A DNA stretch of 33,402 bases, taken from a virus. Below the pieces are notes generated by a model. The model saw only the letters and a program-made list of their open reading frames with translations, searched no databases and was not told the origin of the DNA. The stretch lies in IMG/VR virus record IMGVR_UViG_3300043419_000490, positions 1-33,402 of that record. One strand, written 5' to 3'. Below, one piece after another: positions 1-33,402 of the stretch. Made by a program: the position numbers and the translations under genes. Numbering within the stretch: the stretch's first letter is position 1; each line of letters starts with the position of its first letter.

Positions 1-276
1 TGCGATACTGATGAAATACTCGTAGTCGTTGACCTTATTGATGGTGATTGATGTTCGCAGGAATCCAGTTCGCACAGCTGGTGCTTGTCCTGGCGCGGAT
101 GCTTGATACGTTGTCTTTGTGCCTGGCATTTTGTATCTTCGTCCTGACTTAGGACCAGTCATCAGCGCGATCATGCCGGTGTACGAAGCACTCACCGCAT
201 TCTGGAGAAATACAGCCAGCATGCGAAAACGCTTCTCGGCATCGTCAAACCCGGAGAGGTCGACCTTAACGGTCAC
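1..276 (-). CDS. gp10-like neck/tail-completion protein, 3' end cut by window edge
   Basis: Ninety-two codons are visible before the window ends. I chose the GTG at 276 because it overlaps the TGA of the upstream gene as GTGA, the junction style used throughout this operon. The visible part has a lysine/arginine-rich GRRYKMPG stretch, then ASAPGQAPAVRTGFLRTSI, which matches the usual 'S-PG-P-TG-L-SI' signature of HK97 gp10-type head-tail proteins. Such proteins act in the neck or tail-completion complex joining head and tail. A second, clearly diverged member lies at 31711-32169 in the same position relative to a spike-associated gene. The C-terminal third is missing, so function is assigned from family and position. 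Confidence 0.7.
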   Translation of the reverse strand, partial: MTVKVDLSGFDDAEKRFRMLAVFLQNAVSASYTGMIALMTGPKSGRRYKMPGTKTTYQASAPGQAPAVRTGFLRTSITINKVNDYEYFISIA

Positions 277-629
277 GGAGCCAGAACCTCGATGAGCAGT
301 GGACCGAAGCGTCGCACAGTAGTCGAAACTGTGAGCGAGATTGTCAGACGCACCATCGCAGATGTTGGATAAGCAGCCGGGTTCAGGACCGTCACAATGC
401 CCTGTGTGGCCATCGACTTTGTGAGTGTGACACTTCCTCCACCGAAGCTGTATGCGATGCCTGTGGCGGCGTTCGTAAAAGTCGCTCCGAGAGTGCCTGT
501 CGTGATGTCAATCGGTGAGCCGTTTGAATCCACAAGACGCACCACGTATGTGTGCCAGTCACCAGTCCAGGCTGCGAGCTGCACAACCTGTTCCGGGTCT
601 TCGGTGATATTGATAATGTTCACACTCAT
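273..629 (-). CDS. Small spike-associated protein, BppU-N-like beta domain (118 aa)
   Basis: This is a stand-alone beta-rich domain with VRLVDSNGSPIDITTGTLGA near the middle and RRFGPLLIEVLAP at the end. The pattern 'D-x-NG-x-x-IDIT' followed by a terminal 'FGPL' strand also appears at the C-terminus of the spike encoded just upstream, so the two are probably structural relatives. Similar domains occur in BppU-like baseplate and fibre proteins, where they mediate attachment or oligomerisation. The start overlaps the spike stop as ATGA. A paralogue of 117 residues (32166-32519) shares most of the sequence. Its role as a spike partner or adaptor is inferred from position and shared fold pattern. 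Confidence 0.6.
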   Translation of the reverse strand: MSVNIINITEDPEQVVQLAAWTGDWHTYVVRLVDSNGSPIDITTGTLGATFTNAATGIAYSFGGGSVTLTKSMATQGIVTVLNPAAYPTSAMVRLTISLTVSTTVRRFGPLLIEVLAP

Positions 630-2677
630 ACTGGCCTCACATAGAGTTTCAATGGACCGAACACCTGCGTGTCTGTCGCTCCGGTTGTCCTGGTCACAGT
701 AACAGTGTACGTGCCAGACGTGTTCGTCACCGTAGTCGTGAGACCGAATGACAGACGACCATTGTCCGCATACGTCGCAGTGCCGGCATATGACGCCACG
801 AGTGTCCCCGCTGAGCTGTAGACCTTCGCGGTGACCGTCGCACCAGTGATATCGATGCCAGTGCCATTCGCGTCAGTGACCTGGACATCGATGCTCGTGG
901 CTGTGCCGACGTTGACATCAAGTGGCTGATCTGCACCTAAGCCATCAGCCAGGAGTTGATAAGGTCCGATGTGTACGCTGGTCGCAGCTGACACTGGCGT
1001 CAACAGATCTGCACTGATGTAATCTGTCCCGTTGTGAAGGAGAGCGCCCTTCAGCTCAGTGGCGGCGTCCGTGTCGTTTGCAATTGCATGAACATCAGCA
1101 TCCACTCGGCTGATGCCACCAGACTGATGAAGCGTGACGAGGCCCTCCTTCGAGTCCTGATCTGCACGAAGGACATTCCATCCAAACGTTCCGTGCGTTG
1201 TGTGGTCATTAGTCAAAGCACCCCAGACAGCAGATGCCGTCTGCGCTGATGTCAAGCCACCACTGCTGAGTTTTACCGTCATCACCGCACCGTTAGTACC
1301 AGACGCACCACGTACAACTATAGTCACATCGTCAGCACCAGCAGCCAAAGCAGCATCAGGCAAGTCGAGGCGATAAACTCCCGGCATATTGGTTGCGTCT
1401 ACCTCCGCAAAGCCACCAGCAGTCCACGCCTGAGCGATTGTACGGGCTACTAGAGGGATGCTTACAGATGCAGTGCGTGTGCGGTTGTAGCGGGCTGTGA
1501 GACCGCTTGTGGAGGCTGTAAGACCTGTAGCACCTAGATAGAGTTCGATGCTTTGTGATGTGCTACCGGGTGCGATTGTGATGGTGTTCGGTGCAGGTTG
1601 ATTGATGAAGCCAATCACATTGTTCCGCGCCGCATACGTGTATGCTCCCATACCTAACAGGGATTGATACCACGCTACTCCGTCTGCATCTGTTGATGGT
1701 GCGCCTGTTGCTGTACCTGCTCCAAGTAAGCGAGAACCAAGGTATGGGCCATTTACGGAAGGGGCTGGTAATCCAACAATTGCACTGTATCCATAGTCAA
1801 GCCCAATGGTTCCAGTCCAAAGACTATTAAGACCTTGTGTTACTGAATTTACAGTACCGCTTACAAGATTATAGTTTTCAATCAATGAACCACTTACGTT
1901 AGTAAATAAAGTAAACGAACCGGACGTATTTATACATACTGAGTTATAAATAGTAGTCGGGTGTGTAGTATTGCTTTGGTAGAGTTGAGTTGTAAAACCA
2001 TCTAAAACCGTTAGGTTATAAATGGAAATACCTCCTGCATTTGTATTTGTACCAGCTGACCCATTGAAATTCTGTAAAAATATCTGATAACTAACACAGT
2101 CAGTTATTGAAATATTTAAACTGTAATTACCGGTATGGTTTGCTCCATTTATATCAATAGCGTAATTCCCGTGATTGAAAATACATTTATTGAACGATGC
2201 ATTTTGAGCAACATTAGCAGTGGTTGTAATGATAAACCCGCGACTAACTTTACTTACAAAAACGCACTTTTCAAACGACCAGTTAGTACACGTTGCTAAT
2301 GTAAAAGCATATTGAGAACCACCAGTTCTATAAACGTCAAAATAAATATTTGAGAATGACCAGTAGTTTCGACTTGTGAACGTAAACAAAACGGCATCTG
2401 TTGGGTTTACATTGTCTACAAGATAGTTTGTGATTCTGACAATACCAGCCGCTATACCGCCTATGTTGAGAGTTGCTAAAGGGTCTCCAATGAACTGAAT
2501 TGTATTACCTGCTGTACCAGATACGCCAAGTGTAAACGTTCCACGATAACTACCGGGCGCAAGGTAGACGATGTCACCAGCACCGGCAGAAGATAATGCT
2601 GTAGCCAAGGACGTAGGCGCACCGACAGTACCGGGATAAGCCGCCGACCCTGTTGGACTCACATATGCTGTAGCCAT
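626..2677 (-). CDS. Tail spike with right-handed beta-helix N-terminal half (683 aa)
   Basis: The first ~330 residues look like a parallel beta-helix: short repeats rich in N, S, T, V and I, and an early GDIVYLAPGSYRGTF segment typical of pectate-lyase-like folds. Residues from about 345 begin LGMGAYTYAARNNVIGFINQ and continue with a repetitive beta domain containing GGFAEVDATNMPGVYRLDLP, common in phage fibres. The last ~110 residues form a BppU-like domain ending FGPLKLYVRPV. It likely binds or degrades a surface polysaccharide. The beta-helix half is markedly AT-richer than the rest of the gene, suggesting module exchange. The C-terminal half is repeated at the right edge of the window. 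No catalytic residues were identified with confidence. Confidence 0.7.
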   Translation of the reverse strand: MATAYVSPTGSAAYPGTVGAPTSLATALSSAGAGDIVYLAPGSYRGTFTLGVSGTAGNTIQFIGDPLATLNIGGIAAGIVRITNYLVDNVNPTDAVLFTFTSRNYWSFSNIYFDVYRTGGSQYAFTLATCTNWSFEKCVFVSKVSRGFIITTTANVAQNASFNKCIFNHGNYAIDINGANHTGNYSLNISITDCVSYQIFLQNFNGSAGTNTNAGGISIYNLTVLDGFTTQLYQSNTTHPTTIYNSVCINTSGSFTLFTNVSGSLIENYNLVSGTVNSVTQGLNSLWTGTIGLDYGYSAIVGLPAPSVNGPYLGSRLLGAGTATGAPSTDADGVAWYQSLLGMGAYTYAARNNVIGFINQPAPNTITIAPGSTSQSIELYLGATGLTASTSGLTARYNRTRTASVSIPLVARTIAQAWTAGGFAEVDATNMPGVYRLDLPDAALAAGADDVTIVVRGASGTNGAVMTVKLSSGGLTSAQTASAVWGALTNDHTTHGTFGWNVLRADQDSKEGLVTLHQSGGISRVDADVHAIANDTDAATELKGALLHNGTDYISADLLTPVSAATSVHIGPYQLLADGLGADQPLDVNVGTATSIDVQVTDANGTGIDITGATVTAKVYSSAGTLVASYAGTATYADNGRLSFGLTTTVTNTSGTYTVTVTRTTGATDTQVFGPLKLYVRPV
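1542..1665. repeat. 124-bp exact direct repeat, copy 1 (other copy at 33279-33402)
   Basis: These bases lie within the spike gene and are identical to the last 124 bases of the window; the first mismatch is G versus C just before AGTTCG. Near-identity extends further on the low-coordinate side (to about 1250). The repeat ends exactly at the window end. Confidence 0.9.
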
Positions 2678-3376: not shown

Positions 3377-3738
3377 GATGTACGCTCCACCAGCCCAACG
3401 TGCTGCACCAATAATTCTGTCTGTCCAAAGTCTGTCCCTACGACATCGTAATACTTCGAATCATCACCCACCCGGTACACGCGGTCTTGTGGCATCACGT
3501 CAGCCCCTACAGCGACTATCAAAGTCCACTGTGCAGATGATGCTATGCCACCGCCTACGATGCTCTCCGTGTCGTTCTGGTTGGTGAGCCTGGCGTTGTA
3601 CTCGGCAACCTTGCGCCACGTCTCAGTGGCACCGCCCCTGCCATCTTCGGTCAAGGTGAAGCGGTGTATCTCTACCCGGTCTTGGCAGAGGTTGCGTACC
3701 ATGCCTGCTTGAAGCGTTGCGCGTAGAATCGGGCTCAT
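3373..3738 (-). CDS. Head closure / head-tail adaptor protein (121 aa)
   Basis: The sequence has the head-tail adaptor pattern: an N-terminal strand (DRVEIHRFTLTEDGRGGATETW), then VAEYNARLTN and a beta-rich C-terminus with QDRVYRVGDDSKYYDVVGTD. This is the SPP1 gp16 / PF05521-like family that plugs the connector after packaging. Length fits the family. It follows the connector with an ATGA overlap, the standard order in HK97-type genomes. Assignment by motif shape and synteny is fairly strong. Confidence 0.7.
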   Translation of the reverse strand: MSPILRATLQAGMVRNLCQDRVEIHRFTLTEDGRGGATETWRKVAEYNARLTNQNDTESIVGGGIASSAQWTLIVAVGADVMPQDRVYRVGDDSKYYDVVGTDFGQTELLVQHVGLVERTS

Positions 3739-4232
3739 GCGAACACCAGAGGGCGGTATCGCTCTGCCATCGAAAGGCAGTGTGCTTTGAGTTGGGAAAG
3801 CTTCACATCGGAGGTGCCTTCCTTGGCATCGATGTCACTAGCGCAACGGCTAGCCTTTATCATCCACGCTTGCCGGGTTGCGGTGCGAACATCGTATCTT
3901 TCAACGTTGATCGGGCCTTGGTCTACCCACATCAGCGTAGGGTCTCCCGTGCCATCTTCAAGGGTAAAGCCCTTGACTTGGTACGGAGAATAGACCGGAT
4001 AATCGGGTTGTGTCGTGCCTGACGTACCGGCTACCCGGCACTCGTAGACCCTGCCGTTGGGCGTTGTAGGTACTACACGGTCACCTACAGCATAAGCCGT
4101 GCTGGCCGTCCAAGTGCTGAACCGTGAGAAAGAATCAAGGATGCTTCCTATGTCGGTGGTGGACATCTGCGGATAACTTTGGGCATCCACAAAAAGTGAT
4201 ACCTGCGCTATCGCTTCGGCTCGTGTCATCAT
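3735..4232 (-). CDS. Head-tail connector with an inserted CBM-like domain (165 aa)
   Basis: The N-terminus (residues 1-40, MTRAEAIAQVSLFVDAQSYP) and the helical C-terminus (about 110-165, including RQAWMIKASRCASDID and CLSMAERYRPLVF) resemble gp6/gp15-type connectors that ring the portal. Between them, residues ~38-105 form a separate module: WTASTAYAVGDRVV, then GRVYECRVAGTSGTTQPDYP, and DGTGDPTLMWVDQG. That is the pattern of the small carbohydrate-binding module family 5/12-like domains seen in chitinases and phage tail proteins. The gene follows a capsid terminator and has a possible leaderless promoter (4238-4248) 5 bases before its ATG. It ends overlapping head closure. Confidence 0.6.
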   Translation of the reverse strand: MMTRAEAIAQVSLFVDAQSYPQMSTTDIGSILDSFSRFSTWTASTAYAVGDRVVPTTPNGRVYECRVAGTSGTTQPDYPVYSPYQVKGFTLEDGTGDPTLMWVDQGPINVERYDVRTATRQAWMIKASRCASDIDAKEGTSDVKLSQLKAHCLSMAERYRPLVFA

Positions 4233-4237
4233 GCTCC

Positions 4238-4248
4238 ACTATCCCACA
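4238..4248 (-). promoter_or_regulatory. TGTGGGATAGT element, 5 bases before connector ATG
   Basis: On the minus strand TGTGGGATAGT precedes GGAGC and the ATG at 4232. The hexamer GATAGT would act as an extended -10 box (TGG before it), giving a start of transcription at or next to the ATG. It lies directly after the capsid terminator (4257-4284). No clear -35 box is seen. Confidence 0.5.
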
Positions 4249-4256
4249 TATAAAGA

Positions 4257-4284
4257 AAGCCCCCGGCACGTCTGCCGAGGGCTT
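4257..4284 (-). terminator. Rho-independent terminator after the major capsid gene
   Basis: The minus transcript forms a 12-bp imperfect stem (arms AAGCCCTCGGCA and TGCCGGGGGCTT) with loop GACG, followed by a T-rich stretch TTCTTTATAT. The capsid stop is at 4304-4306, 20 bases before it. Confidence 0.8.
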
Positions 4285-4303
4285 GAGATACGAACCGCTA
4301 GGC

Positions 4304-5584
4304 TTATGTAGCTGCGGATGCTCCGACGATAAGCGAACCCGGTACACGGTTGGCTGCTGTTGCATCCACGTTACCGATGTCAAACGCTTTGAATGCGAAT
4401 CGCTCAGTTGCCTTGAATGCAAGCGCATCTTCGACAAAGTAGCGCTGATCCGAAACCTCGATGGTAACGGTTCGGCGGTCACCGAATGCTGTACCCATGC
4501 TCAGGTCACCCAAGAGGACATAAGGCGTGGATGCTGCAAGGGTCTTCTGCATATTCTGGACGAACACGACAGGGTAACCGTAGAGCATAGGCGTAGGGCC
4601 GTACGCATTTGCGATGTCGCTGATGGCGTTTCCACCAAGTGCATCAAGCAAAGGTGCAATCGCGTTGTACCAAATCTCCTTATGCATATACCACTTGGCC
4701 TGTGCGGCGTATGTCGGGAGCTTGGCAACCATACCCTTCAGGTTAGCAAGTGTCGGGCTGTAGGTGATGGTCTGGCCGGTCGTGAAGACCTGCAAGGACG
4801 CGATGTTAGCCTTGGTTGCGTTGCTGCTGTAGATGGCATAAAGGATGCCATCGAGGCCGCTCGTGCTATCGACTGCATTGTTGAAAACAACGCGGTCTTC
4901 TTCCTTCGCAAGAACGTAAGCCATGTCACGGGCAAGCGTTGCACCAAAGTCGATGATGCTATCTTCGGCCAACTCTTTAGAAACCTGAGTAAGGACAGAT
5001 GGCTTCTTTGCAACCAAGTTGACCTGTGCAAAGGTCATATCGGAAGCGGTGATAGCGGTATTCTCACCCGGGTAGTAAACCGTGGTGCTCGCGGTTGCGT
5101 TTGGCACGTTCAAGACATCGCTGGACATCGGGTAGATGCGGCAGTTCTGCCGAGCAATACCGAACTGCTCACGGAGGTAGATAAGCTCAGAGGACAACGG
5201 ATCTGGAACGGTAAAACCACCAGCGGTTGTCGTACCTTCGGACTGTGCTTTGAGGTTGTTCTTGACCCACTCAGCGGCCTTGCGGTTGCCCATGATAGAG
5301 CGTCCCCACTGACCCCAAGCGTAAGCCTTCCAGTTTGCCTCATCACGAGTACCGGAGAATGGATTCTTACCAACGCCGCCGGATTTCCATGGCTGCTCAT
5401 CTGCAACTTCCGTTGCTACTGGATGACCTTGTCCAAGTGCCTTGATTGTCTCGATGCGCTCTTCGATGCCCTTGGCTTCTGCCATCAGGCTCTTGACCTG
5501 TGCAAGGTCACCGTTACCGGAAGCAAGCTCCCGTGCGGTAGCCAAGACAGATTCTTTTTGATTCTGTAGTTGTGTGAGATTCAT
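4304..5584 (-). CDS. Major capsid protein, HK97 fold (426 aa)
   Basis: The N-terminal ~80 residues are helical and charged (TQLQNQKESVLATARELASG, then EAKGIEERIETIKALG), like the delta/scaffolding domain removed by the prohead protease. The mature part has NCRIYPMSSDVLNVPNATAS and AKKPSVLTQVSKELAEDS, followed by AYVLAKEEDRVVFNNAVDS, the usual HK97-family spine-helix region. The C-terminus has the P-domain strand RRTVTIEVSDQRYFVEDALA. The start overlaps the protease stop as ATGA. A terminator-like hairpin (4257-4284) follows, fitting high, self-contained expression. Confidence 0.85.
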   Translation of the reverse strand: MNLTQLQNQKESVLATARELASGNGDLAQVKSLMAEAKGIEERIETIKALGQGHPVATEVADEQPWKSGGVGKNPFSGTRDEANWKAYAWGQWGRSIMGNRKAAEWVKNNLKAQSEGTTTAGGFTVPDPLSSELIYLREQFGIARQNCRIYPMSSDVLNVPNATASTTVYYPGENTAITASDMTFAQVNLVAKKPSVLTQVSKELAEDSIIDFGATLARDMAYVLAKEEDRVVFNNAVDSTSGLDGILYAIYSSNATKANIASLQVFTTGQTITYSPTLANLKGMVAKLPTYAAQAKWYMHKEIWYNAIAPLLDALGGNAISDIANAYGPTPMLYGYPVVFVQNMQKTLAASTPYVLLGDLSMGTAFGDRRTVTIEVSDQRYFVEDALAFKATERFAFKAFDIGNVDATAANRVPGSLIVGASAAT

Positions 5585-6564
5585 AGTTGTGTTAGCAACT
5601 CCAGACGTGCCAGCAGTTCCTGGCGTTCGTCATTGTCATGGGCTTTCGCCTCTACTACGATGACCGGGTTTGCTTCTGGCTGGTCTGCATCCCGCAGAGA
5701 ATCCCAACACTCAGGAGCAAGTCGCTTTGCAGCTGACCGGCTAAGACCGACTGCATCCCGCAGCCGACGTTCAACACCCCGCAAGGATGCGGGTTGTATA
5801 CATTTGGCACCGTGCATGGCGTATAGCTGCTTTGCACGATTCGCAAACTCATTGATGATTGCATCAGCCATTGAAGCATCAGCCACCAAGCCGATACCCT
5901 CGGACATCGCTTCGTAGTAGGCTTCCATGCCTTCATGGATTAGATCCGCTTCAGCCATCTTGAATAGCTCAGCGGCGTACTCTTCCGGGGATTGTTCAGG
6001 CATTGGAGCCATGACCATCTCTTCTTCTTCTTCCATCATAGGCTCCATGCCGTAGTACTCCTTGAGGGTTTTTACACTGTTGCGATACTCGGCAGGTGTC
6101 GGGGTAATGCTTGCCTCAGCGATAGGCCAGCGGGTAATCTCAGCGGCACCACCCATGCTCTTCCGCTCTACCAGATGACCAGCGGCACCGGATGAAAAGC
6201 CCATCTTGCCTTGCTTGCAGAGTTTCGCAATCATGCTGCCGTATTCATCCGCCATGTCTAGTTGAGCCTCATACCAAAGCCCGGTATCGTCCATCTTGAT
6301 GTAGCCTGTACCGATGCTCTTCTTGCCGACAGCGGCATCCATGCCGTGATGGTAGTACACATTCAAAGGGACTCGCTGCCCCTTGGCAACCGGGAAACCG
6401 TAGTCGGTTTGAGGCGTGAAGTAATCGCCCTCAAGGTCGGCGGTCTTATCGTTACCAAAGCGCACAAGGTAGCCCTTGACGTAGCCAAGCCTGTCGCTCT
6501 TGATACCGTCTACGGAAGATGTCAGCAAGTCCATACCCTCAGTATCCCACAGTGCATTTTTCAT
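5581..6564 (-). CDS. Prohead protease, with an acidic C-terminal region (327 aa)
   Basis: This is an HK97/U35-type serine protease that trims the capsid delta domain. It has GYLVRFGNDKTADLEGDYF, a histidine pair in VYYHHGMD (about 72-73), the serine block MGFSSGAAGH (about 121-130) and EASITPTPAE (about 150-159). After ~165 the chain is acidic and helical, with an EEEEE run, and could act as an internal scaffold. Two starts compete: ATG 6564 overlaps the MuF stop as ATGA, while ATG 6534 (MDLLTSSVDG) lies 6 bases after a TGTGGGATACT element. Both may be used. Confidence 0.8.
   Translation of the reverse strand: MKNALWDTEGMDLLTSSVDGIKSDRLGYVKGYLVRFGNDKTADLEGDYFTPQTDYGFPVAKGQRVPLNVYYHHGMDAAVGKKSIGTGYIKMDDTGLWYEAQLDMADEYGSMIAKLCKQGKMGFSSGAAGHLVERKSMGGAAEITRWPIAEASITPTPAEYRNSVKTLKEYYGMEPMMEEEEEMVMAPMPEQSPEEYAAELFKMAEADLIHEGMEAYYEAMSEGIGLVADASMADAIINEFANRAKQLYAMHGAKCIQPASLRGVERRLRDAVGLSRSAAKRLAPECWDSLRDADQPEANPVIVVEAKAHDNDERQELLARLELLTQL
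6540..6551 (-). promoter_or_regulatory. TGTGGGATACTG element, 6 bases before protease ATG 6534
   Basis: The hexamer GATACT (6541-6546) is followed by GAGGGT and then ATG, so a transcript would start at the A of ATG. The bases also encode Leu-Trp-Asp-Thr if the ATG at 6564 is used. It may boost protease and capsid expression. Confidence 0.4.
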
Positions 6565-7547
6565 AGGTACGTTGTTAGATCCGGTTGATAACCCTCTAGG
6601 TCTCTAAGCGGCAATACCCGTGTAGTAGGCCCCCAGTCAGCGTTAGGCACCACGGTAGCCATGTCACTGAGCGGTAGCCCTTCGCTGTAAAGGTTGTAGC
6701 GAGCGGTGCCAAGTATCTGGTGGGCTTCAACCTGCGTAAGCCCCTTCAGAATCTCTTCACCGGTTGCCACCTTGGGGCGGGTATCCGGGATGCTACTATC
6801 CCCGGTTATCTCAGCCCATGAAAGCGTCTCCGGTATCATCACGCACCGGCAGTTCGGATGGCTTGGCATAATGGTGTCGGTGGCGTGAAGGGTGCCGGAG
6901 AGAGCCAAGCAAGCAAGGCATACCCGGCTGTCCTGCGTAGCCTGCCGCCGGTACCCGGTAACCGAACCATTCTCCGTATAGAGTTGCCGCTGGGCTTCCC
7001 TGGCGCTTCGTATCATCTCAGTACGCGCTATCGTCTCGGCACGTTGCCGTCCGATGTCTGCCGCTTTGCGTACCCGCCGTGCTACCGTGCGCGGGCCTTC
7101 ACCTAGGCTGATGCCTTGTACCAAAGCCATCTGCATGGAATCCGTGGTTACTTGGGGGATGGCATCGAATAGGACAGCCAGAGGCGAACCATCGCCTGCG
7201 AACCCGACAAAGGCCTGCAGGGCTTCGTCAGGTAGACTTGTCCAGCTAGTACCAAGGGTAACGCCGGCGGGCTTTTTACCCGCTGCCGCTTCCACAAGGC
7301 GCGGCGTTGCATCATTAGCAAGGATAGCGGCTTGTAGCTGCCCATCGGCTGTAATCACTGCCCCCTCAACGCTGAACTTCTTCAGGTTCTTTCCCAGCTG
7401 CTCAATGTTATCTATGATCCGCTGACGCATCCAGAGTATGGTTTCGCTTGGCGGTTCCCCGTTTGCTTCACGCTCTGCGATACGCCCCTCTAACGCTTCA
7501 AGCTCATCGATGCTGGCTTTGGTAGCGGCTTTGTATGCCCGTTGCAT
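6561..7547 (-). CDS. MuF-like minor head protein (328 aa or longer)
   Basis: The protein has a helical N-terminal half and a C-terminal Mu gpF-type domain with RAETIARTEMIRSAREA, a CxxC in SRVCLACLAL and the hallmark HPNCRC. These minor head proteins attach at the portal and are packaged with, or injected along, the DNA. The ATG at 7547 is the first standard start, but the frame stays open upstream with plausible helix sequence (YRNDLLEREGVAISR, between about 7548 and 7592) up to the end of the portal gene. No ATG, GTG or TTG lies there in frame. A GGAGG sequence sits near 7646. The true start may be non-canonical. Confidence 0.75.
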   Translation of the reverse strand: MQRAYKAATKASIDELEALEGRIAEREANGEPPSETILWMRQRIIDNIEQLGKNLKKFSVEGAVITADGQLQAAILANDATPRLVEAAAGKKPAGVTLGTSWTSLPDEALQAFVGFAGDGSPLAVLFDAIPQVTTDSMQMALVQGISLGEGPRTVARRVRKAADIGRQRAETIARTEMIRSAREAQRQLYTENGSVTGYRRQATQDSRVCLACLALSGTLHATDTIMPSHPNCRCVMIPETLSWAEITGDSSIPDTRPKVATGEEILKGLTQVEAHQILGTARYNLYSEGLPLSDMATVVPNADWGPTTRVLPLRDLEGYQPDLTTYL

Positions 7548-7630
7548 CCGGCTGATGGCTACGCCTTCACGCTCTAAAAGGTCATTACGATACTTCTGAG
7601 ATGCGGCATATATCCTGCCCGTCCCTGTGT

Positions 7631-9367
7631 CTACTCGCTTGAGATTTCCTCCAGCGAATACCCGTAAAAAGGGTGGCTCTTGTACACTACCCCCGGAGTG
7701 CAGACATGGTCACCATCAAGGCTCTTGCCGTCTGGTTGCATAGCGTCCCGCTTGGATGTAGACCAACGGAACCCAGCATCACCGCCCCACAAGTCCCAGG
7801 CTACACGCCCCGGACTTGGGAACCCCTCTTCACCAGCGTTGAAGCCTTCAGCCTGTTTGTCTACTTCATGGCGGCTGAAGAAAGAATACATCCGCAGTAT
7901 GGTGTCTTCGGAAAGTTTCTCACCGTTCACGATTTGGTTAGCCCGCGCCAAGCCTATGCGCGTCCCGCCATCGAACCCTTCAGCCTTCCAGTCAAGCGCC
8001 CGCTGTGCTGCTGTCCGCATCGCTTCAGTTGGGCGGAACTTGACATCGTAAGACCGAACGGCGGCACCATCAAAGCCACCGGTGCTTTGTACCGGGATAG
8101 CCGTTGGGTGTAGTTGCCCTTCATCTTCCGGCACGGCTTCAAGGCCTGCTATGCGCTTTGCTTCAGCCCGATCAATGATGCCAGCCTTGTACAGTTTCTC
8201 GGCTCTTACCGCTTCCGCTTGCATATCGTCAGCAAGCGCCCTGACCGTTTCAAGGTCATACATAACGTAATCACCCTGCTGTGTCTCAGGGTATTCCGGC
8301 AGGAGGTCAGCGGTGATTGCATCCGCCAAGGTACGCAGGAGTGGCACCATGCCATCTTCCCAAGCCGCTTGCTGGGCGCGTTCGTAATTGCTGTAGGTAG
8401 ACCGCTCTAAGCCTGAACCAAGCCCTAAGACCATCGGGTTGATACCAAGGGCTGAACAGATACGCTCCTCCGGTACACGCCGTACAGAGTCCAGAGCAAG
8501 CTCGGAAGGAGTAAGGGATACCCTATCCATCTTGTACGCACCGGTCATTACCACGATGCCACCGGAACCGTCCCCGGTTAGGTCTTCGTGTAGTTGGCGC
8601 TTGACCTGCCGAGCATCATCCATGCTCATGTCTACCGATGTCTCTTTGGCATCAGGCCCGACAATCAATGAAGGCATAGCACCGTTAGCCAAGAGTCCAT
8701 AAGCGGTTGTGGATGCGGTGTTATCGGTTGCAATCTCCCGCAGGACAGCGGTAAGTGGCGCTCTACCAATCCGGATATCGCTTGGGTCACGCCCGTACCG
8801 GATGTGGATGATGTCGGATACCGGGATGTCAAAACTCCTGCCGTCAGTGGTGTAGACGTAATGCGTCAAAGGGTTGACGCCGTTACCTACCGGTCTAACC
8901 ATGTCCTGCGGCAGGAACTGCAAGGCGGTCACCGTGCCACGGGTAGTAGAGCGTATCTTTCTCAGGTAGGTATTGCCGAATAACTTGTAATCTTGAATGA
9001 CCCAGCCCCAGAAAAGGCTACCCATAATCATTGGATCCGGTTGCGCCATGAGCTGTAGAACCGGGTGGTCTTCTACGGGTTCGGCCTGCTGGCTGTCTAC
9101 CGGTCGGTAATAGCGCGGCGTGGCCTGTGGGTAGTTTCTCACGTACCAATCAATAGCACTAGCCACAACACCGTTTAGGCCTAAGTCACCGGCTACACGC
9201 GACCAGTCCTTAGTGCTTCCAGGGAGTGCCCGGCGTAGCAATGTTTGCAGCTGACCAGAGCCGTAACCGGTTAGGTAGATGTCCCTAGACTGGGACAACG
9301 GCAGCGGTAGTGCCTGTGTCGGGTTGGCTGCGGCTTTACGTCCGAGGAAGCGGTCAAAGATACCCAT
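7631..9367 (-). CDS. Portal protein, HK97 family, with a C-terminal extension
   Basis: The N-terminus MGIFDRFLGRK and segments VVASAIDWYVRNYPQATP, GWVIQDYKLFGNTYLRKIR, IHIRYGRDPSD and CSALGINPMVLGLGSGLERS are typical of HK97-type portals, the dodecameric ring through which DNA is packaged. The ATG at 9367 is preferred over an upstream TTG at 9385, which falls inside a terminator. After the portal core, the last ~150 residues carry a separate module (RANQIVNGEKLSEDTILRMY, FFSRHEVDK and PGRVAWDLWGGDAGFRW) that is found appended to phage head proteins. The start lies 6 bases after a TGTGGGATACT element directly downstream of a terminator. Confidence 0.85.
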   Translation of the reverse strand: MGIFDRFLGRKAAANPTQALPLPLSQSRDIYLTGYGSGQLQTLLRRALPGSTKDWSRVAGDLGLNGVVASAIDWYVRNYPQATPRYYRPVDSQQAEPVEDHPVLQLMAQPDPMIMGSLFWGWVIQDYKLFGNTYLRKIRSTTRGTVTALQFLPQDMVRPVGNGVNPLTHYVYTTDGRSFDIPVSDIIHIRYGRDPSDIRIGRAPLTAVLREIATDNTASTTAYGLLANGAMPSLIVGPDAKETSVDMSMDDARQVKRQLHEDLTGDGSGGIVVMTGAYKMDRVSLTPSELALDSVRRVPEERICSALGINPMVLGLGSGLERSTYSNYERAQQAAWEDGMVPLLRTLADAITADLLPEYPETQQGDYVMYDLETVRALADDMQAEAVRAEKLYKAGIIDRAEAKRIAGLEAVPEDEGQLHPTAIPVQSTGGFDGAAVRSYDVKFRPTEAMRTAAQRALDWKAEGFDGGTRIGLARANQIVNGEKLSEDTILRMYSFFSRHEVDKQAEGFNAGEEGFPSPGRVAWDLWGGDAGFRWSTSKRDAMQPDGKSLDGDHVCTPGVVYKSHPFYGYSLEEISSE

Positions 9368-9372
9368 GCTAG

Positions 9373-9384
9373 CAGTATCCCACA
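9373..9384 (-). promoter_or_regulatory. TGTGGGATACTG element, 6 bases before portal ATG
   Basis: GATACT (9374-9379), then GCTAGC, then ATG at 9367: the same geometry as at 6540-6551. It begins at the last T of a terminator T-tract, so a new transcription unit seems to start exactly where the last ends. No -35 match; an extended -10 (TGG) is present. Confidence 0.5.
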
Positions 9385-9410
9385 AAAAGAAAAAGCCCCC
9401 TTGCGGGGGC
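9384..9410 (-). terminator. Terminator between the moron-like gene and the portal gene
   Basis: The minus transcript has GCCCCC, loop GCAA, GGGGGC, then TTTTTCTTTTT. It ends the 9430-9702 transcript just before the portal element. Confidence 0.88.
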
Positions 9411-9429
9411 CTGTGGCGGTTCCTATCGT

Positions 9430-9702
9430 CTAGTCTCTGGTGATGTACTGAGTATCTACATCAAGTCCGAGTGCGTGATACTTAGCGATGATTGCTTTCG
9501 ATTCTTCGTTGAGTCCACCAGCAACGTTGGACTGGAAGCCTACACTGCTTGTGTAGATGTAGCGGCGGTAGCTGTTGCGGCCATACTGAGCATAACCATC
9601 GAATACCGAGTTGATGTCTGCGGCATCGATGCCGGCTTTCTTAAGGTCTGTCTTGCGTGTGCTTGAAACCTTGATAACGTAAAAGTCGAAGTAGTTTTCC
9701 AT
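9430..9702 (-). CDS. Independently transcribed small protein (moron-like, 90 aa)
   Basis: I do not recognise this protein. It starts MENYFDFYVIKVSSTRKTD and is rich in Y, S, A and K, with no membrane segment. What stands out is its control. It sits between the large terminase and portal genes but has its own promoter (9732-9760), a strong GGGAGATA ribosome-binding sequence before the ATG, and its own terminator (9384-9410). That is the layout of a moron, an accessory gene expressed separately from the late operon. The promoter matches those of the rightward early genes, so it is probably expressed early or constitutively. An anti-defence or host-takeover role is possible but unproven. Confidence 0.7.
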   Translation of the reverse strand: MENYFDFYVIKVSSTRKTDLKKAGIDAADINSVFDGYAQYGRNSYRRYIYTSSVGFQSNVAGGLNEESKAIIAKYHALGLDVDTQYITRD

Positions 9703-17807: not shown

Positions 17808-18167
17808 TTATACATCAAAAGCAAACCCGACATGATCCGCTATCGCCTTGGCGGCATCGTGCCAAGAGTACGCAACAATGAAAGTGTAGCCGTGCGGCTG
17901 GAGAGCATCCCTAAAAGATACCTGCCTCGGTGTTAGCCTTCCCTTGCCTGCCTTCATCTCGATGAAAAGACCGGGAGTGGGAACCGGTAGGAAGATGTCC
18001 CAAACACCGGCAAGGACACCCATGGCTTTGAACTTTGCAGCTGTACGCGGGTCACGGTAGCCACCGTTGGGGCAATGGTATATCGTAGCAAGCTCAGGGT
18101 GTTTAGCCGCCATCAAGCGTACCCAAGTAATCAGGGCTATCTGCTCCCGGTCTTCAAGATGCTTCAC
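17808..18167 (-). CDS. VRR-NUC domain nuclease (119 aa)
   Basis: The whole protein is a minimal VRR-NUC fold: EDREQIALITWVRLMA, HCPNGGYRDPRTAAKFKAMG, then AGVWDIFLPVP (catalytic D), GLFIEMKAGKGRLTPRQVSF (ExK plus the Q helix). This family contains Holliday-junction or flap nucleases, and stand-alone phage copies sit in replication blocks. Start is GTG at 18167, overlapping the sigma-factor stop as GTGA. It probably processes branched DNA before packaging or during recombination with the ERF protein. Confidence 0.88.
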   Translation of the reverse strand: MKHLEDREQIALITWVRLMAAKHPELATIYHCPNGGYRDPRTAAKFKAMGVLAGVWDIFLPVPTPGLFIEMKAGKGRLTPRQVSFRDALQPHGYTFIVAYSWHDAAKAIADHVGFAFDV

Positions 18168-19015
18168 GTCAAATCCTCAACTTCGTAGCGCCCCCGGATG
18201 GTTGCTAGGGCTGATTCTATCTGCGCCTCGATGACTGACACGGGTGTCTTGTACCGGCTGGCTATCGTCCGCAGGGTCTCCGGCTTACTGCCATCCAAAC
18301 CAAAGCGCCTTACAAGCAAATAGCGGGAATCGTCATCCAGCGATAGCAAAGCATCGCCAAGCCTATCTGCCCATGTATCAGCGATAAACGCCTCCTCGGG
18401 GCTTGTGGAGGCTCCTAGTACCCTGCAATCCTCATACACCAGACCATCCGTGCCAGCGACCGGGACATTGATACTCACCGGCTGTACTTGCTGGCTGTCC
18501 CTGGCGATGCCTATCATCGTAACCGATAGCCCCGTATAGGTTGAGAGCTCCTCATCGGTTGGAGCCGTGCCGTGCTGATGGAGGTGTTGATCGTGTGCCT
18601 TACGGATTCGCAACCACTTGTATATGGTGTGCTCGGATACCCGTATGGTCTTGCTTTGGGTTGACTGGTAACGCCTGTACTTCTGAATAATCCACTTCAT
18701 GGCGAAAGTGCTGAACCGTAGCCCCCGGCTGGAGTCCCACCGGGTAATGGCGATGATAAGACCCTGAAGGCAGAACGCCACGGCGTCCTCAAAGTCATCT
18801 TGCTTGTGTATCTGCTTGGCCATCTCTTTACATAGGCCGGTGTTACGGTGAACCATTTCAGCCATGCACTCTTTGGGCATGATGCCCGCCGCCCATGCCT
18901 GATGCAGTAAGACCATCTCATCGTGAGACAACAAACGCTCCGGCGCCTTGGATAAAGCCCGGAGCGTCTGCCGTATGCTTGCCTTACTTGGTGGCAAGTG
19001 CAATCCAATCAACAT
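18164..19015 (-). CDS. Sigma-70-family transcription factor (283 aa)
   Basis: The sequence shows the core of a housekeeping-type sigma factor. Region 2 runs from NTGLCKEMAKQIHKQ (about 58-72) through AVAFCLQGLIIAITRWDSSR to GLRFSTFAMKWIIQKYRRYQ (about 98-117). A region 3-like helix pair follows (TAPTDEELSTYTGLSV, about 150-165), and region 4 is LRTIASRYKTPVSVIEAQIE at about 248-267 after RYLLVRRFGLDG. Region 1.1 is absent. Phage sigma factors of this size redirect host RNA polymerase to middle or late promoters. It overlaps the Tad2-like gene by 32 bases and VRR-NUC by 4. A candidate target is TGTGGGATA(C/G)T. Confidence 0.8.
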   Translation of the reverse strand: MLIGLHLPPSKASIRQTLRALSKAPERLLSHDEMVLLHQAWAAGIMPKECMAEMVHRNTGLCKEMAKQIHKQDDFEDAVAFCLQGLIIAITRWDSSRGLRFSTFAMKWIIQKYRRYQSTQSKTIRVSEHTIYKWLRIRKAHDQHLHQHGTAPTDEELSTYTGLSVTMIGIARDSQQVQPVSINVPVAGTDGLVYEDCRVLGASTSPEEAFIADTWADRLGDALLSLDDDSRYLLVRRFGLDGSKPETLRTIASRYKTPVSVIEAQIESALATIRGRYEVEDLT

Positions 19016-20717: not shown

Positions 20718-20723
20718 GTCCCA

Positions 20724-20754
20724 TATATACCATATATATATAATAGCCTGTCAA
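20724..20754 (-). promoter_or_regulatory. Promoter of the HTH repressor gene, possibly leaderless
   Basis: TTGACA at 20749-20754 and TATATA at 20724-20729 on the minus strand with a long 19-base spacer (18 to an alternative TATAT). Six bases separate the -10 from ATG 20717, so the mRNA may start at the start codon, as known for lambda cI. Confidence 0.6.
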
Positions 20755-20820: not shown

Positions 20821-21072
20821 ATGAAGACATCAGCAATCGCAACAGTCAAGTGGGCAATCGAAGAAGGCATGGGCCTTCAGCTCAGCAGTCCTTCAGGCTT
20901 GCACGACATCGACCTTAACGAAGCCATCGACGCAATCAACGAGTGTGAAGACGAAGATATCCGGGTAGAAGACGATGTGGTCATCTTTGGTATGGGCGAT
21001 GTCTGCATCAAGATTGCAGATCCAGATGACTACAACGCGGATGCATCCAACCACGTAACGGGAGATAAGTAA
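20821..21072 (+). CDS. Small acidic early protein, paralogue A (83 aa)
   Basis: First gene of the rightward operon, with GGGAGATAAG before the ATG and promoter at 20759-20787. It is acidic, with DIDLNEAIDAINECEDEDIR in the middle, VVIFGMGDVCIKIADPDD near the end and TGDK at the C-terminus. The next gene repeats this plan, so the two look like an ancient duplication. The family is not recognised. Early promoter and small acidic character suggest a host-takeover or protein-mimic role, which is inference. Confidence 0.65.
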   Translation: MKTSAIATVKWAIEEGMGLQLSSPSGLHDIDLNEAIDAINECEDEDIRVEDDVVIFGMGDVCIKIADPDDYNADASNHVTGDK

Positions 21073-21311
21073 TGACACTTTTCCAACAGGCCTACGAGAT
21101 GGTAGAGATTGCCGATGAACAAGGCAAGACCATCAAGGCTCACGGGCTAAAAGATTGGCACGAGCTCACGTTAGATGAAGCCCAAGACTGGCTCATTTAC
21201 GAGCGTGACAAGAACAGTAAGTTTTTCATTGAAGGCAACCTAATCAAGTTCAATGATTGCACCGTTTGGATCAGCATCACTGACCCAGACACCACGGGAG
21301 ATAAAGAATGA
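21072..21311 (+). CDS. Small acidic early protein, paralogue B (79 aa)
   Basis: Starts in TAATG overlap with paralogue A. It shows the same layout: helical front (AYEMVEIADEQGKTIKA), LTLDEAQDWLIYERD corresponding to LNEAIDAINE, then IEGNLIKFNDCTVWISITDP and a TGDKE end. Its final codons also serve as the ribosome-binding sequence GGGAGATAA of the ERF gene, and the same is true in paralogue A, so the shared TGDK may come from the embedded signal and not from selection on protein. Function unknown. Confidence 0.65.
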   Translation: MTLFQQAYEMVEIADEQGKTIKAHGLKDWHELTLDEAQDWLIYERDKNSKFFIEGNLIKFNDCTVWISITDPDTTGDKE

Positions 21312-21802
21312 CTAGTAGCGAAAACATAGGGGCTATTGCCCCTTCACTCATCAAGGCACAAAGCCGTATGCAAAGCATCAGCAAGGAGGGTACTAACCCT
21401 GCCTTCAAGTCCAAGTATGTCACCTTGGATTCTATCTTGGACGCTCTGCGCCCTATCCTTACGGCGAGCGACCTGATGCTAACCCAAGGCACCACGGAAA
21501 CCCACGTCACAGATGGCAAGGTCACAGCGATTACTGTAGAGAGCCGCATCATTCATGCATCCGGTGAATGGATCAGCACGACAGCAACCATCCCGGTAAC
21601 CAAGCCTGACGCTCACGGCTTAGGCTCTGCGCTGACGTATGGCCGCCGATATAGCGTGTCCGCTCTGCTGGCAATAAGTGCCGATGAGGATGATGATGCA
21701 AACTTAGCGGTAGCGCCTCGTGATGACTACCGTAGAGGCCCACAGGGCAACATCGTTATTGACCAGCCACTGAAGGCTAGACCACTGGGAGGAAATAGAT
21801 AA
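21308..21802 (+). CDS. erf: ERF-family single-strand annealing protein (164 aa)
   Basis: Matches the ERF recombinase family: IAPSLIKAQSRMQSISKEG, AFKSKYVTLDSILDALRPIL, and the hallmark GSALTYGRRYSVSALLAIS followed by DEDDDAN. ERF proteins anneal complementary single strands, allowing recombination or circularisation of phage DNA ends. Length is at the short end of the family because the variable C-terminal domain is reduced. It overlaps paralogue B by 4 bases and the Gam-like gene by TAATG. An SSB-like partner lies on the opposite strand at 14706-15197. Confidence 0.88.
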   Translation: MTSSENIGAIAPSLIKAQSRMQSISKEGTNPAFKSKYVTLDSILDALRPILTASDLMLTQGTTETHVTDGKVTAITVESRIIHASGEWISTTATIPVTKPDAHGLGSALTYGRRYSVSALLAISADEDDDANLAVAPRDDYRRGPQGNIVIDQPLKARPLGGNR

Positions 21803-22341
21803 TGGGATATCACTTAGTAGATGGCGAGCTGTGGGACGAGGAGACCGGCGAGTATGCCGGTCCGATGTCAGGCTGGATAACAGGCAACGAATCACCGGAA
21901 GACCTTGCGCTCCTGGTGATGCGGAAGCGCATGGACATCGAGGCAACCCTACAGGCTGAGAAAGCCAAGATGGATGCGATCGTAGAGAACACCCGCAAGA
22001 TGGTTGCAAAGCATCAGGCCCGGCTTGACTGGCTGGAAGCGCGATACAACGCCCAGCTGCAAGACTACGCACTAAGCCAACTGCCACGCAAAGCCGACGG
22101 CTCCTTGAAGGTCAAGACGTGGACGTGTCCTTATGGCACGGTTTCCTTCCGGACAGTTGCCGAGCGTGTCAAGGTAGTAGAGGAAGAAGAAACCGTAGCA
22201 TGGCTGATGGAGCATAACCCTGAAGCGGTCAAGACAAAGCACACTGTGCTGGTTAGCAAGCTCAGCGACTTTGCCACGATCCACGCGCCAGGGCTTGAGA
22301 TAATCCCGGCTACCGAATCGGTAACGATAAAAACAGTTTGA
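21802..22341 (+). CDS. Gam-like host-nuclease inhibitor / DNA-end-binding protein (179 aa)
   Basis: The helical N-terminal half contains LEARYNAQLQDYALSQ (long antiparallel helices), followed by a beta segment TWTCPYGTVSFRTVAERVKV and WLMEHNPEAVKTKHTVLVSK, which fit the Mu Gam fold that resembles Ku. Gam-like proteins bind DNA ends and block RecBCD-type degradation. The strong GGGAGGAAATAGATA precedes the ATG. Directly after ERF, it likely shields ends while ERF anneals them. It is the last gene before a second early promoter at 22338-22366. Confidence 0.8.
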   Translation: MGYHLVDGELWDEETGEYAGPMSGWITGNESPEDLALLVMRKRMDIEATLQAEKAKMDAIVENTRKMVAKHQARLDWLEARYNAQLQDYALSQLPRKADGSLKVKTWTCPYGTVSFRTVAERVKVVEEEETVAWLMEHNPEAVKTKHTVLVSKLSDFATIHAPGLEIIPATESVTIKTV

Positions 22342-22366
22342 CAACTATCCACATCCGGTGTATATT
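22338..22366 (+). promoter_or_regulatory. Promoter of the orphan gene 22401-22733
   Basis: TTGACA (22338-22343), 17-base spacer, TATATT (22361-22366): a near-consensus sigma-70 promoter overlapping the end of the Gam-like gene. Inverted repeat GGTGTATA (22357-22364) and TATACACC (22378-22385) flanks the start site, fitting an operator. Confidence 0.85.
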
Positions 22367-22400
22367 CCGGGTGTGGTTATACACCACAGGGAGATAATAG

Positions 22401-22733
22401 ATGACAGTAGCAGATGACGTGTACACGATGGAGCGGTTGGAGAACGTGCTACGGCACGGTCACACAACCTTTGAAACAATCGAACTTGACTTTTCCAGCG
22501 CATGGAATGAGGAACTCGGAGCATGGCAATATCAGCGCTCTTTGCGCTGCACTCTTCACGACATCAGCCGGATGGTTTGGTTCACCACCTGCAAGGGCAA
22601 CCTGTTGAACGTGGTCTACAGCAGCGGCGGTGTTGACATCCACATTGATGTTGACCAGTTCACCTTGGGCGCTCCTTCTGACTGGCAGATTCGCCAGTGG
22701 ATCGGCGAGATGGCAAGCCAGTTGATGCCGTAG
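22401..22733 (+). CDS. Orphan early protein with its own promoter (110 aa)
   Basis: I do not recognise this protein. It has an acidic N-terminus (TVADDVYTMERLENVLRHGH), a middle beta-rich part with CTLHDISRMVWFTTCKGNLL, and a basic or neutral end (DWQIRQWIGEMASQ). It has a promoter matching the consensus (22338-22366), GGGAGATAATAG before the ATG and a strong terminator (22799-22828). Like 9430-9702, it forms a separate transcription unit and may be a defence- or host-directed accessory gene. Confidence 0.65.
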   Translation: MTVADDVYTMERLENVLRHGHTTFETIELDFSSAWNEELGAWQYQRSLRCTLHDISRMVWFTTCKGNLLNVVYSSGGVDIHIDVDQFTLGAPSDWQIRQWIGEMASQLMP

Positions 22734-31231: not shown

Positions 31232-31711
31232 CTACTGCTGGGTCAAGCAGCGATAGACCGCTGTCACCCCGTAATCCGTCCTGCCACCATCAGATAGTAC
31301 AAAGGTTTGATCCGTTGAAGTCCTGCGGACATAGAGCCGTGGGGTCGTGGTTGTCACCGTCTGATTATCCAAAAGTGTATCGATGCGATTCATTATGGTT
31401 TGTATTCTCGCCATACTCATCGCTCCGCTTTCAGTATCCCACACAGTTATCCGGTAGTTAGGGTAAGTAAAAACACGAGCGCCGCACATGGTGTCTTCGT
31501 CTTCACCGCTGGCACCAGCTCTGCTAAACACAACGTAGGGCACCTGCACCGGTCGGCGTGATACCGGATCAGTCTGTGGCGCTACGGTGTTATAGATGCC
31601 CATCTGATAGCCATCAGGCTTATTGTCAACGGCAAGTAAACCCAAGAGCGTAGTATCGCCGCTCAGGGTCTCATATATCCATTGCTCAATCACTGCCGGT
31701 TCAAATGCCAT
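31232..31711 (-). CDS. Tail terminator protein (159 aa)
   Basis: The chain IEQWIYETLSGDTTLLGLLA, VPYVVFSRAGASGEDEDTMC, YRITVWDTESGAMSMARIQT and IDTLLDNQTVTT fits the tail-terminator/DUF3168-like family, which caps the tube at the neck end. Position between the gp10-like neck protein and the major tail protein agrees. The start overlaps the gp10-like stop as TAATG. It contains, in coding frame, a chance copy of the TGTGGGATACTG element that encodes Trp-Asp-Thr. Confidence 0.75.
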   Translation of the reverse strand: MAFEPAVIEQWIYETLSGDTTLLGLLAVDNKPDGYQMGIYNTVAPQTDPVSRRPVQVPYVVFSRAGASGEDEDTMCGARVFTYPNYRITVWDTESGAMSMARIQTIMNRIDTLLDNQTVTTTTPRLYVRRTSTDQTFVLSDGGRTDYGVTAVYRCLTQQ

Positions 31712-32169
31712 TACTTACCTTTCAAAACCAGACTGAGTGCTTTGATAAATGCTGGCTTGACCTTCATTAGAGCCGGTTCCATGAATGGCCTTGCAGGTAC
31801 TGTATTACCGCCCTTCGATGTCCATCCAAGTTCTAGGGCAACCGCGTACTTGGCATCTGCTGTAGCATTAGCACCCTTTTTACCAGCGGTGATTTCAGCT
31901 TTAGTCTTGCCTATCATCCTATGACCGATGCTATTTGCGAGATTACCTGTGTCGGTGTTTGGTGGAGTGCCGGGTGGACTTGAGTACGTTTTTATATCTT
32001 TATTCAAGCCACTGACACGCTCTTTGTATTTACCAGACGATGTCAATATAGAGTCTTTAGCGTTGCCTTCTACTTGTGCCGCCATCGTGCCAACTACCAC
32101 AGTAATCTTGCCTAGATTCGCCTTGTAGCGGTCTAGGGACGTAGTCTTGAGGGATACTGTTACACTCAT
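31711..32169 (-). CDS. gp10-like neck/tail-completion protein, complete copy (152 aa)
   Basis: The protein has a helical front (LDRYKANLGKITVVVGTMAA), SSGKYKERV, then YSSPPGTPPNTDTGNLANSI, the gp10-family signature, and KYAVALELGWTSKGG with RPFMEPALMKVKPAFIKAL at the end, which is a common family C-terminus. It would sit at the neck between head closure and tail terminator. It is only distantly similar to the partial gene at 1-276, though both follow a spike-associated protein, so the two cassettes differ in age or origin. Confidence 0.75.
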   Translation of the reverse strand: MSVTVSLKTTSLDRYKANLGKITVVVGTMAAQVEGNAKDSILTSSGKYKERVSGLNKDIKTYSSPPGTPPNTDTGNLANSIGHRMIGKTKAEITAGKKGANATADAKYAVALELGWTSKGGNTVPARPFMEPALMKVKPAFIKALSLVLKGK

Positions 32170-32519
32170 GGTGCCAGCACCTGAATCTGTAAAGGCCCAA
32201 AGCGCCGTACCGTGGTGCTAACCGTGAAGGATATCGTTAGCCTGATGTCTGCCGCTGTACCGTAAGCCGCAGGGTTGAGAACGCTCAGAATGCCTTGTGC
32301 GCTGTACTGCTTTGTCAAGGTAACGGATCCAGATGGAAAGGTATAAGCCGCCCCCGTAGCAATGTTGGTGAAGGTAGCACCAAGTGTACCGGTCGTGATG
32401 TCTACCGGGCTTCCCAGTTCGTCCACCAAGCGGACAACGTAGGAGTGCCAGTCTCCGACCCATGCGGAGACTTGCACGACCTGCTGAGGGTCTTCAGTCA
32501 AATCATAAATCAATGCCAT
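32166..32519 (-). CDS. Small spike-associated protein, second copy (117 aa)
   Basis: A paralogue of the protein at 273-629, sharing TEDPQQVV/TEDPEQVV near the start, TTGTLGATFTN in the middle and VSTTVRRFGPL at the end, with many differences between. It has the same BppU-N-like pattern, VRLVDELGSPVDITTGTLGA. It overlaps both its spike (TAATG) and gp10-like neighbour (ATGA). Presumed to help join or fold the spike. Confidence 0.62.
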   Translation of the reverse strand: MALIYDLTEDPQQVVQVSAWVGDWHSYVVRLVDELGSPVDITTGTLGATFTNIATGAAYTFPSGSVTLTKQYSAQGILSVLNPAAYGTAADIRLTISFTVSTTVRRFGPLQIQVLAP

Positions 32520-33402
32520 TAGATATCCCTCACATAGATACGCAGTGGTCCAAATATCTGCGTATCGCTTGCACCCGTTGTGCGTGTAATCGTTGCAGTG
32601 TAAGTGCCTGGAGTGTTGGTAACCGTTGTGTCAATGGTGAAGGTAGCACGTCCATCAGCTGCGTAGGTTGCCGTACAGGAGTAAGTGTCAACCAGCGTTG
32701 CACCGCTGTTGTAGACCTTAGCCGTAACCGTTGCACTCGTGATGTCGATTCCTGCGCCGTTGTTGTCTACACACTGGATATCGATGCCGTGCTGTGCGCC
32801 CTTCTGAATATCAAGCGGATCCGATGCCCCTAAGCCATCCGCCCTAACTTCAAACGGCCCCATGCGTACCAGAGCGGCAGAGGTAACCGGGGTCACAAGT
32901 TCGGCATTGACATACTGCCCGAAAGTACCGGCTGTCGTATGGCTTGTCCTTGCCTCATCCCACACCGCCGCCGCCGTCTGTGCTTCCGTCAAGCCACCAC
33001 TGCTCAGTTTGACCGTCATTACCGCACCGTTAGTACCGCTTGCACCACGCACCACGATAGTCACATCATCAGCACCAGCAGCCAGTGCGGCATCCGGGAG
33101 GTCTAAGCGATACACGCCCGGCATGTTGGTTGCGTCAACCTCGGCAAAGCCACCAGATGTCCACGCTTGTGCGATGGTACGGGCTACTAGAGAAATGCTT
33201 ACAGATGCAGTGCGTGTGCGGTTGTATCGGGCTGTGAGACCGCTTGTGGAGGCTGTTAGACCTGTAGCACCGAGATACAGTTCGATGCTTTGTGATGTGC
33301 TACCGGGTGCGATTGTGATGGTGTTCGGTGCAGGTTGATTGATGAAGCCAATCACATTGTTCCGCGCCGCATACGTGTATGCTCCCATACCTAACAGGGA
33401 TT
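32519..33402 (-). CDS. Tail spike C-terminal part, 5' end beyond window edge
   Basis: Open to the right edge: residues SLLG continue upstream of MGAYTYAARNNVIGFINQ, so the Met at 33388 is internal. Its sequence closely follows the C-terminal half of the spike at 626-2677 through the GGFAEVDATNMPGVYRLDLP region, with nucleotide identity falling from complete in the last 124 bases to moderate in the final BppU-like domain (ending FGPLRIYVRDI). The N-terminal receptor-binding part is outside the window. Likely a second spike or an allele of the first. Confidence 0.7.
   Translation of the reverse strand, partial: SLLGMGAYTYAARNNVIGFINQPAPNTITIAPGSTSQSIELYLGATGLTASTSGLTARYNRTRTASVSISLVARTIAQAWTSGGFAEVDATNMPGVYRLDLPDAALAAGADDVTIVVRGASGTNGAVMTVKLSSGGLTEAQTAAAVWDEARTSHTTAGTFGQYVNAELVTPVTSAALVRMGPFEVRADGLGASDPLDIQKGAQHGIDIQCVDNNGAGIDITSATVTAKVYNSGATLVDTYSCTATYAADGRATFTIDTTVTNTPGTYTATITRTTGASDTQIFGPLRIYVRDI
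33279..33402. repeat. 124-bp exact direct repeat, copy 2, ends at the window edge
   Basis: Identical to 1542-1665, in the truncated second spike. Ending a contig exactly at the end of a long exact repeat is typical of a break in assembly or of wrap-around on a circular molecule. Confidence 0.9.

Follow-up and report, generated by a model that had tools for sequence, protein, structure and literature searches.

A short invariant motif and a phage-encoded sigma factor suggest a compact, leaderless late-promoter system in a family of uncultivated phages

Results

Our analyses of a 33,402-nt stretch of viral DNA (the window) and of its relatives in IMG/VR suggest that these phages probably possess a regulon of -10-only, leaderless late promoters, in which an 11-bp motif, TGTGGGATA[C/G]T, would be read by a sigma factor of the phage itself. 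The motif is found four times in the window, always on the minus strand. Three of the copies stand 5-6 nt before the ATGs at 4232, 6534 and 9367, exactly as an initial annotation made from the letters of this DNA had reported: candidate late promoter A (TGTGGGATAGT, 4238-4248, minus strand) lies 5 nt from the ATG at 4232 of the gene that follows the capsid gene, candidate B (TGTGGGATACT, 6541-6551, minus strand) lies 6 nt from the protease ATG at 6534, and candidate C (TGTGGGATACT, 9374-9384, minus strand) lies 6 nt from the portal ATG at 9367. The fourth exact copy, candidate D (TGTGGGATACT, 31433-31443, minus strand), which had been overlooked, lies within a tail-completion ORF, ahead of the major tail gene (31220). 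Shuffling the window 300 times by dinucleotides gave a mean of 0.03 and a maximum of one exact copy of TGTGGGATA[CG]T per shuffle, against the four observed.

The base sequence of the motif argues strongly for an extended -10 element. When its last T is set at -7, the motif reads T-17 G-16 T-15 G-14 G-13 G-12 A-11 T-10 A-9 [C/G]-8 T-7, and a spacer of 6 nt makes the A of the ATG position +1. Extended -10 promoters follow the rule T-17R-16T-15G-14 and do not need a -35 element (PMC7403470); the arrangement seen here, TGTG followed by one base and a hexamer with A-11 and T-7 (TGTG-G-GATA[C/G]T), is present in 234 distinct copies across relatives in IMG/VR. An extended -10 promoter is further characterized by a transcription start 6-8 nt downstream of its hexamer. 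Neither a conserved -35 nor any other upstream position conserved in common was found among sites A, B and C, and a generic promoter scan recovered none of the four sites because it requires a -35. At A, B and C, the spacing puts the predicted +1 on the A of the ATG or one base away from it, which agrees with the earlier prediction that transcription starts at the start codon.

The same annotation had stated that these genes have no good Shine-Dalgarno, a claim that holds in the sense that none is usable at A, B or C but that calls for some qualification: the anti-Shine-Dalgarno score reaches -4.0 kcal/mol at the portal gene, and the purine runs GAGGG and GGAG adjoin the ATGs of the protease gene and of the gene at 4232, respectively, a distance too short for them to act. 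We hold with moderate confidence that the mRNAs made from A, B and C would be leaderless, and we infer that the genes driven by the motif are late. The divergent early genes display anti-Shine-Dalgarno scores of -7.4 to -10.2 kcal/mol at normal spacing. On the plus strand, the early genes at 20821-22401 have almost the same Shine-Dalgarno context, GGGAGATAA, immediately ahead of their start codons.

As previously noted, two of the copies adjoin terminators, the hairpins lying directly upstream of the copies at 4238 and 9374. The first (4257-4284, minus strand, 12 pairs) is a terminator-like hairpin situated after the major capsid gene and upstream of A; the second (9393-9412, minus strand, 8 pairs) resembles an intrinsic terminator with its T tract and directly precedes C. 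Among relatives, the hairpin before C is found in most but not all, and the portal motif is preceded either by a terminator or by the last part of the terminase gene. Since this motif follows the terminase gene directly in several relatives, terminators upstream of the motif are common, not essential. Altogether, spacing, strand, terminators and the absence of another conserved upstream element fit the proposal of a compact late-promoter system, in which the terms late and leaderless describe the predicted behavior of these genes.

More than 600 close relatives of the portal protein exist in IMG/VR. We ran the search for the motif in relatives that had been put forward as a check. It met with no exception: each of the 234 distinct copies conforms to TGTGGGATA[C/G]T, and the motif is kept in 57/57 distinct sequences at C, 67/67 at B, 46/46 at A and 64/64 at D (one further B anchor proved to be a false match elsewhere in the genome). 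Only position 10 (-8) varies, between C and G, the other ten positions being invariant; the 57 distinct copies at site C are identical. The spacer between motif and ATG measures 5-6 nt at A, B and C in relatives, including the portal site of every relative examined. All 20 related contigs carry the motif, the reversed control pattern gave no matches in related contigs, and even divergent members, whose portal and capsid proteins are 68-73% and about 59% identical, respectively, still bear exact copies. In complete relatives, four copies occur on one strand, the late strand, at spacings of about 2.8, 2.3 and 4.6 kb.

A scan of viral contigs for TGTGGGATACTN{5,6}ATG returned about 63 loci belonging to relatives, together with 47 unrelated single matches, which is the chance level in so large a collection. 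Searches of phage records with the portal, terminase, capsid and sigma sequences brought up distant matches only. Among annotated phages whose portals are distant, two have overlapping terminase and portal genes, and a third shows no motif in the 181 bases just upstream of and over the portal start. The literature search yielded no report of the motif, the papers containing the 11-mer being unrelated among the matches listed. We are dealing with an uncultivated family of small phages that forms a widespread lineage.

The portal gene (7631-9367, minus strand; PHROG 2662/12 portal) begins with MGIFDRF, conserved in relatives. The prohead protease gene (Peptidase_S78, 5581-6534, minus strand; Pfam PF04586, 9.1e-8) has a conserved ATGGAC start, and the protease frame does not stay coding upstream of site B in relatives; its true start is most likely 6534, not the longer ORF start at 6564. 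The gene downstream of A (3735-4232, minus strand) shows weak CBM5/12-like and head-decoration matches.

The proposed reader of promoters A-D, on which the initial annotation was silent, is encoded at 18164-18997 on the minus strand. Its product matches Pfam Sigma70_r2 (PF04542) with 29.4 bits, above the curated cut-off of 24, the Pfam r3 and r4 models taken alone staying below their cut-offs; it also matches PHROG 351, RNA polymerase sigma factor (E 1.1e-32), and sigma factors of the PDB (1.9e-19), with a phmmer alignment over 77-255. The predicted fold, whose confidence is only moderate (mean pLDDT 68.7), aligns over 275 columns (E 1.3e-10) with the sigma chains of initiation complexes. The phmmer alignment and the fold match cover sigma domains 3 and 4, and the predicted protein is in our reading a full sigma-70-family factor; the best annotated phage sigma matches are only about 25-31% identical. 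Of the ten assembled relatives, nine have the gene, and the contig of the tenth does not include this locus. In the sequences examined, translation appears to start at a TTG or GTG eight codons before a conserved RQTLR, with no conserved ATG, and the start usually overlaps or abuts the upstream stop codon; the listed ORF start is 19015, and the window gene probably starts at TTG 18997.

The family contains two sigma types, I and II, that are 44% identical to each other. Over 35 sigma sequences, invariant residues make up 52% of regions 2.3-3.0 against 18% of region 4.2 and about 27% of the whole protein. The two types thus share their -10-reading surface, a pattern to be expected if the -10 region alone were what both read alike. 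In E. coli sigma-70, T440 contacts position -12. The residue aligned with T440 is Arg in all 35 sequences and Q437 is kept, while position -12 of the motif is always G, against the consensus; it is tempting to propose that this Arg reads the G. Furthermore, the only variable base of the motif follows the sigma type: in counts made manually on two lists of contigs, the -8 base at A and B is G in 12 cases and C in one among type I contigs, and G in none and C in 35 among type II contigs (Fisher p about 2e-10). The sigma type and the head genes may share ancestry, in which case the covariation would not reflect independent evolution. A 62-kb contig (G006, loci L105 and L343) holds two genomes of this family in tandem, one per sigma type, and could be a concatemer, a co-assembly or a chimera; each half follows the rule linking -8 base and sigma type.

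One fair question is whether the motif is an extended -10 promoter of the host housekeeping sigma, the phage sigma doing something else. A -35 is dispensable in extended -10 promoters with TGTG (PMC7403470), the host sigma could likewise make use of TGTG together with GATACT, and the HTH gene of the phage uses TGGTATATA-N6-ATG, a similar layout of host type. This last promoter (20718-20754, minus strand) is composed of TTGACA at 20749-20754 and TATATA at 20724-20729, 6 nt from the ATG at 20717, and the TATATA-N6-ATG of this repressor-like gene is kept in nine of ten relatives. The initial annotation had pointed out that the repressor gene has the same -10-to-ATG spacing; the spacing is indeed shared, but the promoter is of a different class because it has T at -12 and an upstream TTGACA. 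This T argues against the host sigma as the reader of the motif, since all 234 copies carry G at -12, where the consensus has T, and C or G at -8, where it has A. The -8 base moreover tracks the type of the phage sigma. So frozen a motif away from the consensus suggests a dedicated reader, and we regard reading by the host sigma as rather unlikely. That the phage sigma is this reader is a proposal in which we place moderate confidence; its domain 4 leaves room for a -35 contact or an activator.

Site D offers a natural control, lying inside a coding gene. The tail-completion-like ORF (31232-31711, minus strand; weak Pfam Tail_completion_gp17 match) reads V-W-D-T at this place. The codons of V90 (GTG) and D92 (GAT) are identical in all 64 distinct sequences, in which most conserved residues around the site use several codons. 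Residue 93 is encoded by ACT in 60 sequences and by AGT in four, a change from T to S that is the same C/G alternation as that of the motif at A and B. The predicted +1 does not fall on a start codon, and a separate Shine-Dalgarno precedes the next gene (31220). As the motif is frozen, neighbouring synonymous sites vary and +1 is not a start codon, the codon comparison indicates that selection at D acts on DNA and not on translation initiation; with no start codon at +1 of D, leaderless starts are not obligatory for the motif.

Site D likewise led us to reject the view of the motif as an RNA-level translation element, either ribosome-binding or enhancer, in a longer mRNA. The fixed 5-6 nt to the ATG at three sites and the GGGA contained in the motif would suit such an element, yet D is equally invariant without a start codon at that distance and, at C, the motif directly follows the T tract of the terminator, which makes this view very improbable. 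Equally improbable is a role as a different kind of DNA site, for instance for binding an activator, for packaging or for recognition by a nuclease: the presence in each genome of four fixed copies on the same strand would be consistent with it, but the fixed distance to start codons, the position after terminators at operon heads and the -17 to -7 footprint of a sigma factor speak against it. Chance repetition or coding coincidence, to which the V-W-D-T of D and a possible coding extension over the window's site B might lend themselves, is practically untenable in view of the shuffles (0.03 versus 4), the conservation in all relatives, the frozen synonymous positions at D and the intergenic location of B in relatives, and the comparative data refute it, a coding explanation being rejected for B and D in particular.

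Discussion

The reading that we favour, a phage sigma reading the motif, leads to the following scenario. The sigma would be made from an early leftward operon that starts at the host-type promoter; running from the HTH regulator, this operon would comprise the genes for sigma, replication and terminase; in the window, it would end at the terminator before promoter C. RNA polymerase carrying the phage sigma would then read the 11-bp extended -10 without a -35, C serving the portal and head assembly, B the protease and capsid, A head completion and D the tail module. At A, B and C, transcription would begin on the A of the ATG or one base away and give rise to leaderless mRNAs; at D, it would begin inside a gene and the following gene would use a normal ribosome-binding site. 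One may go further and imagine a late switch in which this private sigma, reading 11 bp with G-12 recognized through Arg, moves the head genes from Shine-Dalgarno to leaderless initiation, possibly with 70S translation under conditions that favour the virus; such a scenario is speculative and somewhat doubtful.

The putative regulon would work like that of T4 gp55, to which it is not related in detail. T4 late transcription relies on gp55 and an 8-bp TATA-box -10 element without conserved -35 at about fifty promoters; it has no sigma-4 equivalent and depends on the sliding clamp gp45 and the coactivator gp33 (PMC2988020). Both systems would associate a phage sigma-family protein with a short, tightly conserved -10 element, no -35 and late genes (inferred in our case). 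Unlike T4, the motif is TGTGGGATA[C/G]T and not an 8-bp TATA box, it has four copies, three of which would start transcription on an ATG, and the sigma matches domains 2-4, domain 4 in the fold comparison. The middle and late promoters of the Thermus phage P23-45 are of the extended -10 type and use the host sigma together with the inhibitor gp39 (PMC7403470). They share with ours T-17R-16T-15G-14, the dispensable -35 and the control of later phage genes, but here the proposed reader is a phage sigma and the hexamer GATA[C/G]T is invariant and non-consensus. In Deinococcus-Thermus, a -10 motif adjoining ORFs produces leaderless mRNA host-wide with the host polymerase (PMC12340547); there as here, a -10 element immediately before the start codon would replace the ribosome-binding site, whereas our case would be a four-site phage regulon in a phage whose early genes have strong Shine-Dalgarno sequences. 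Cyanophage and other phage sigma factors belong to the same protein family by profile (PHROG 351).

The motif and the sigma factor would provide a complete, testable promoter-reader pair for a widespread phage lineage of which no cultured close relative was found in phage records. The promoter would be very small, 11 bp and a 6-bp spacer with neither leader nor ribosome-binding site, and shows almost no sequence variation. It may represent a clean case for studying how a sigma factor changes its specificity at -12 and whether late phage translation is leaderless by design, and it would make a compact orthogonal expression module. The comparison with relatives also corrects start codons, that of the protease to 6534 and that of sigma probably to TTG 18997.

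Some observations concern the genome as a whole. The ends of the window (1-1665 and 31738-33402) overlap, 1219-1665 and 32956-33402 being 90% identical and the adjoining part about 66%; the genome is therefore probably circularly permuted, with a size of about 31.7 kb, and the record probably either represents such a permutation, with its closure in a tail-fibre region that is variable, or combines sequence from two strains. Read as a circle, it places site D 4.5 kb downstream of site A, as compared with 4.5-4.7 kb in relatives. A scan of genome contigs with the portal, aimed at assigning a host, gave matches that consisted of a shared C-terminal domain only and revealed no prophage. Portal residues from about 445 to 551 form this separate domain, which contigs of SAR86, Sphingobacteriales and Planctomycetota carry with about 60% identity, and DNA related to the same stretch lies under capsid genes of Roseobacter phages. 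Between the terminase and portal genes, a small gene (9430-9702) is absent from nine of the ten assembled relatives and 100% identical in the tenth, which suggests a recent exchange.
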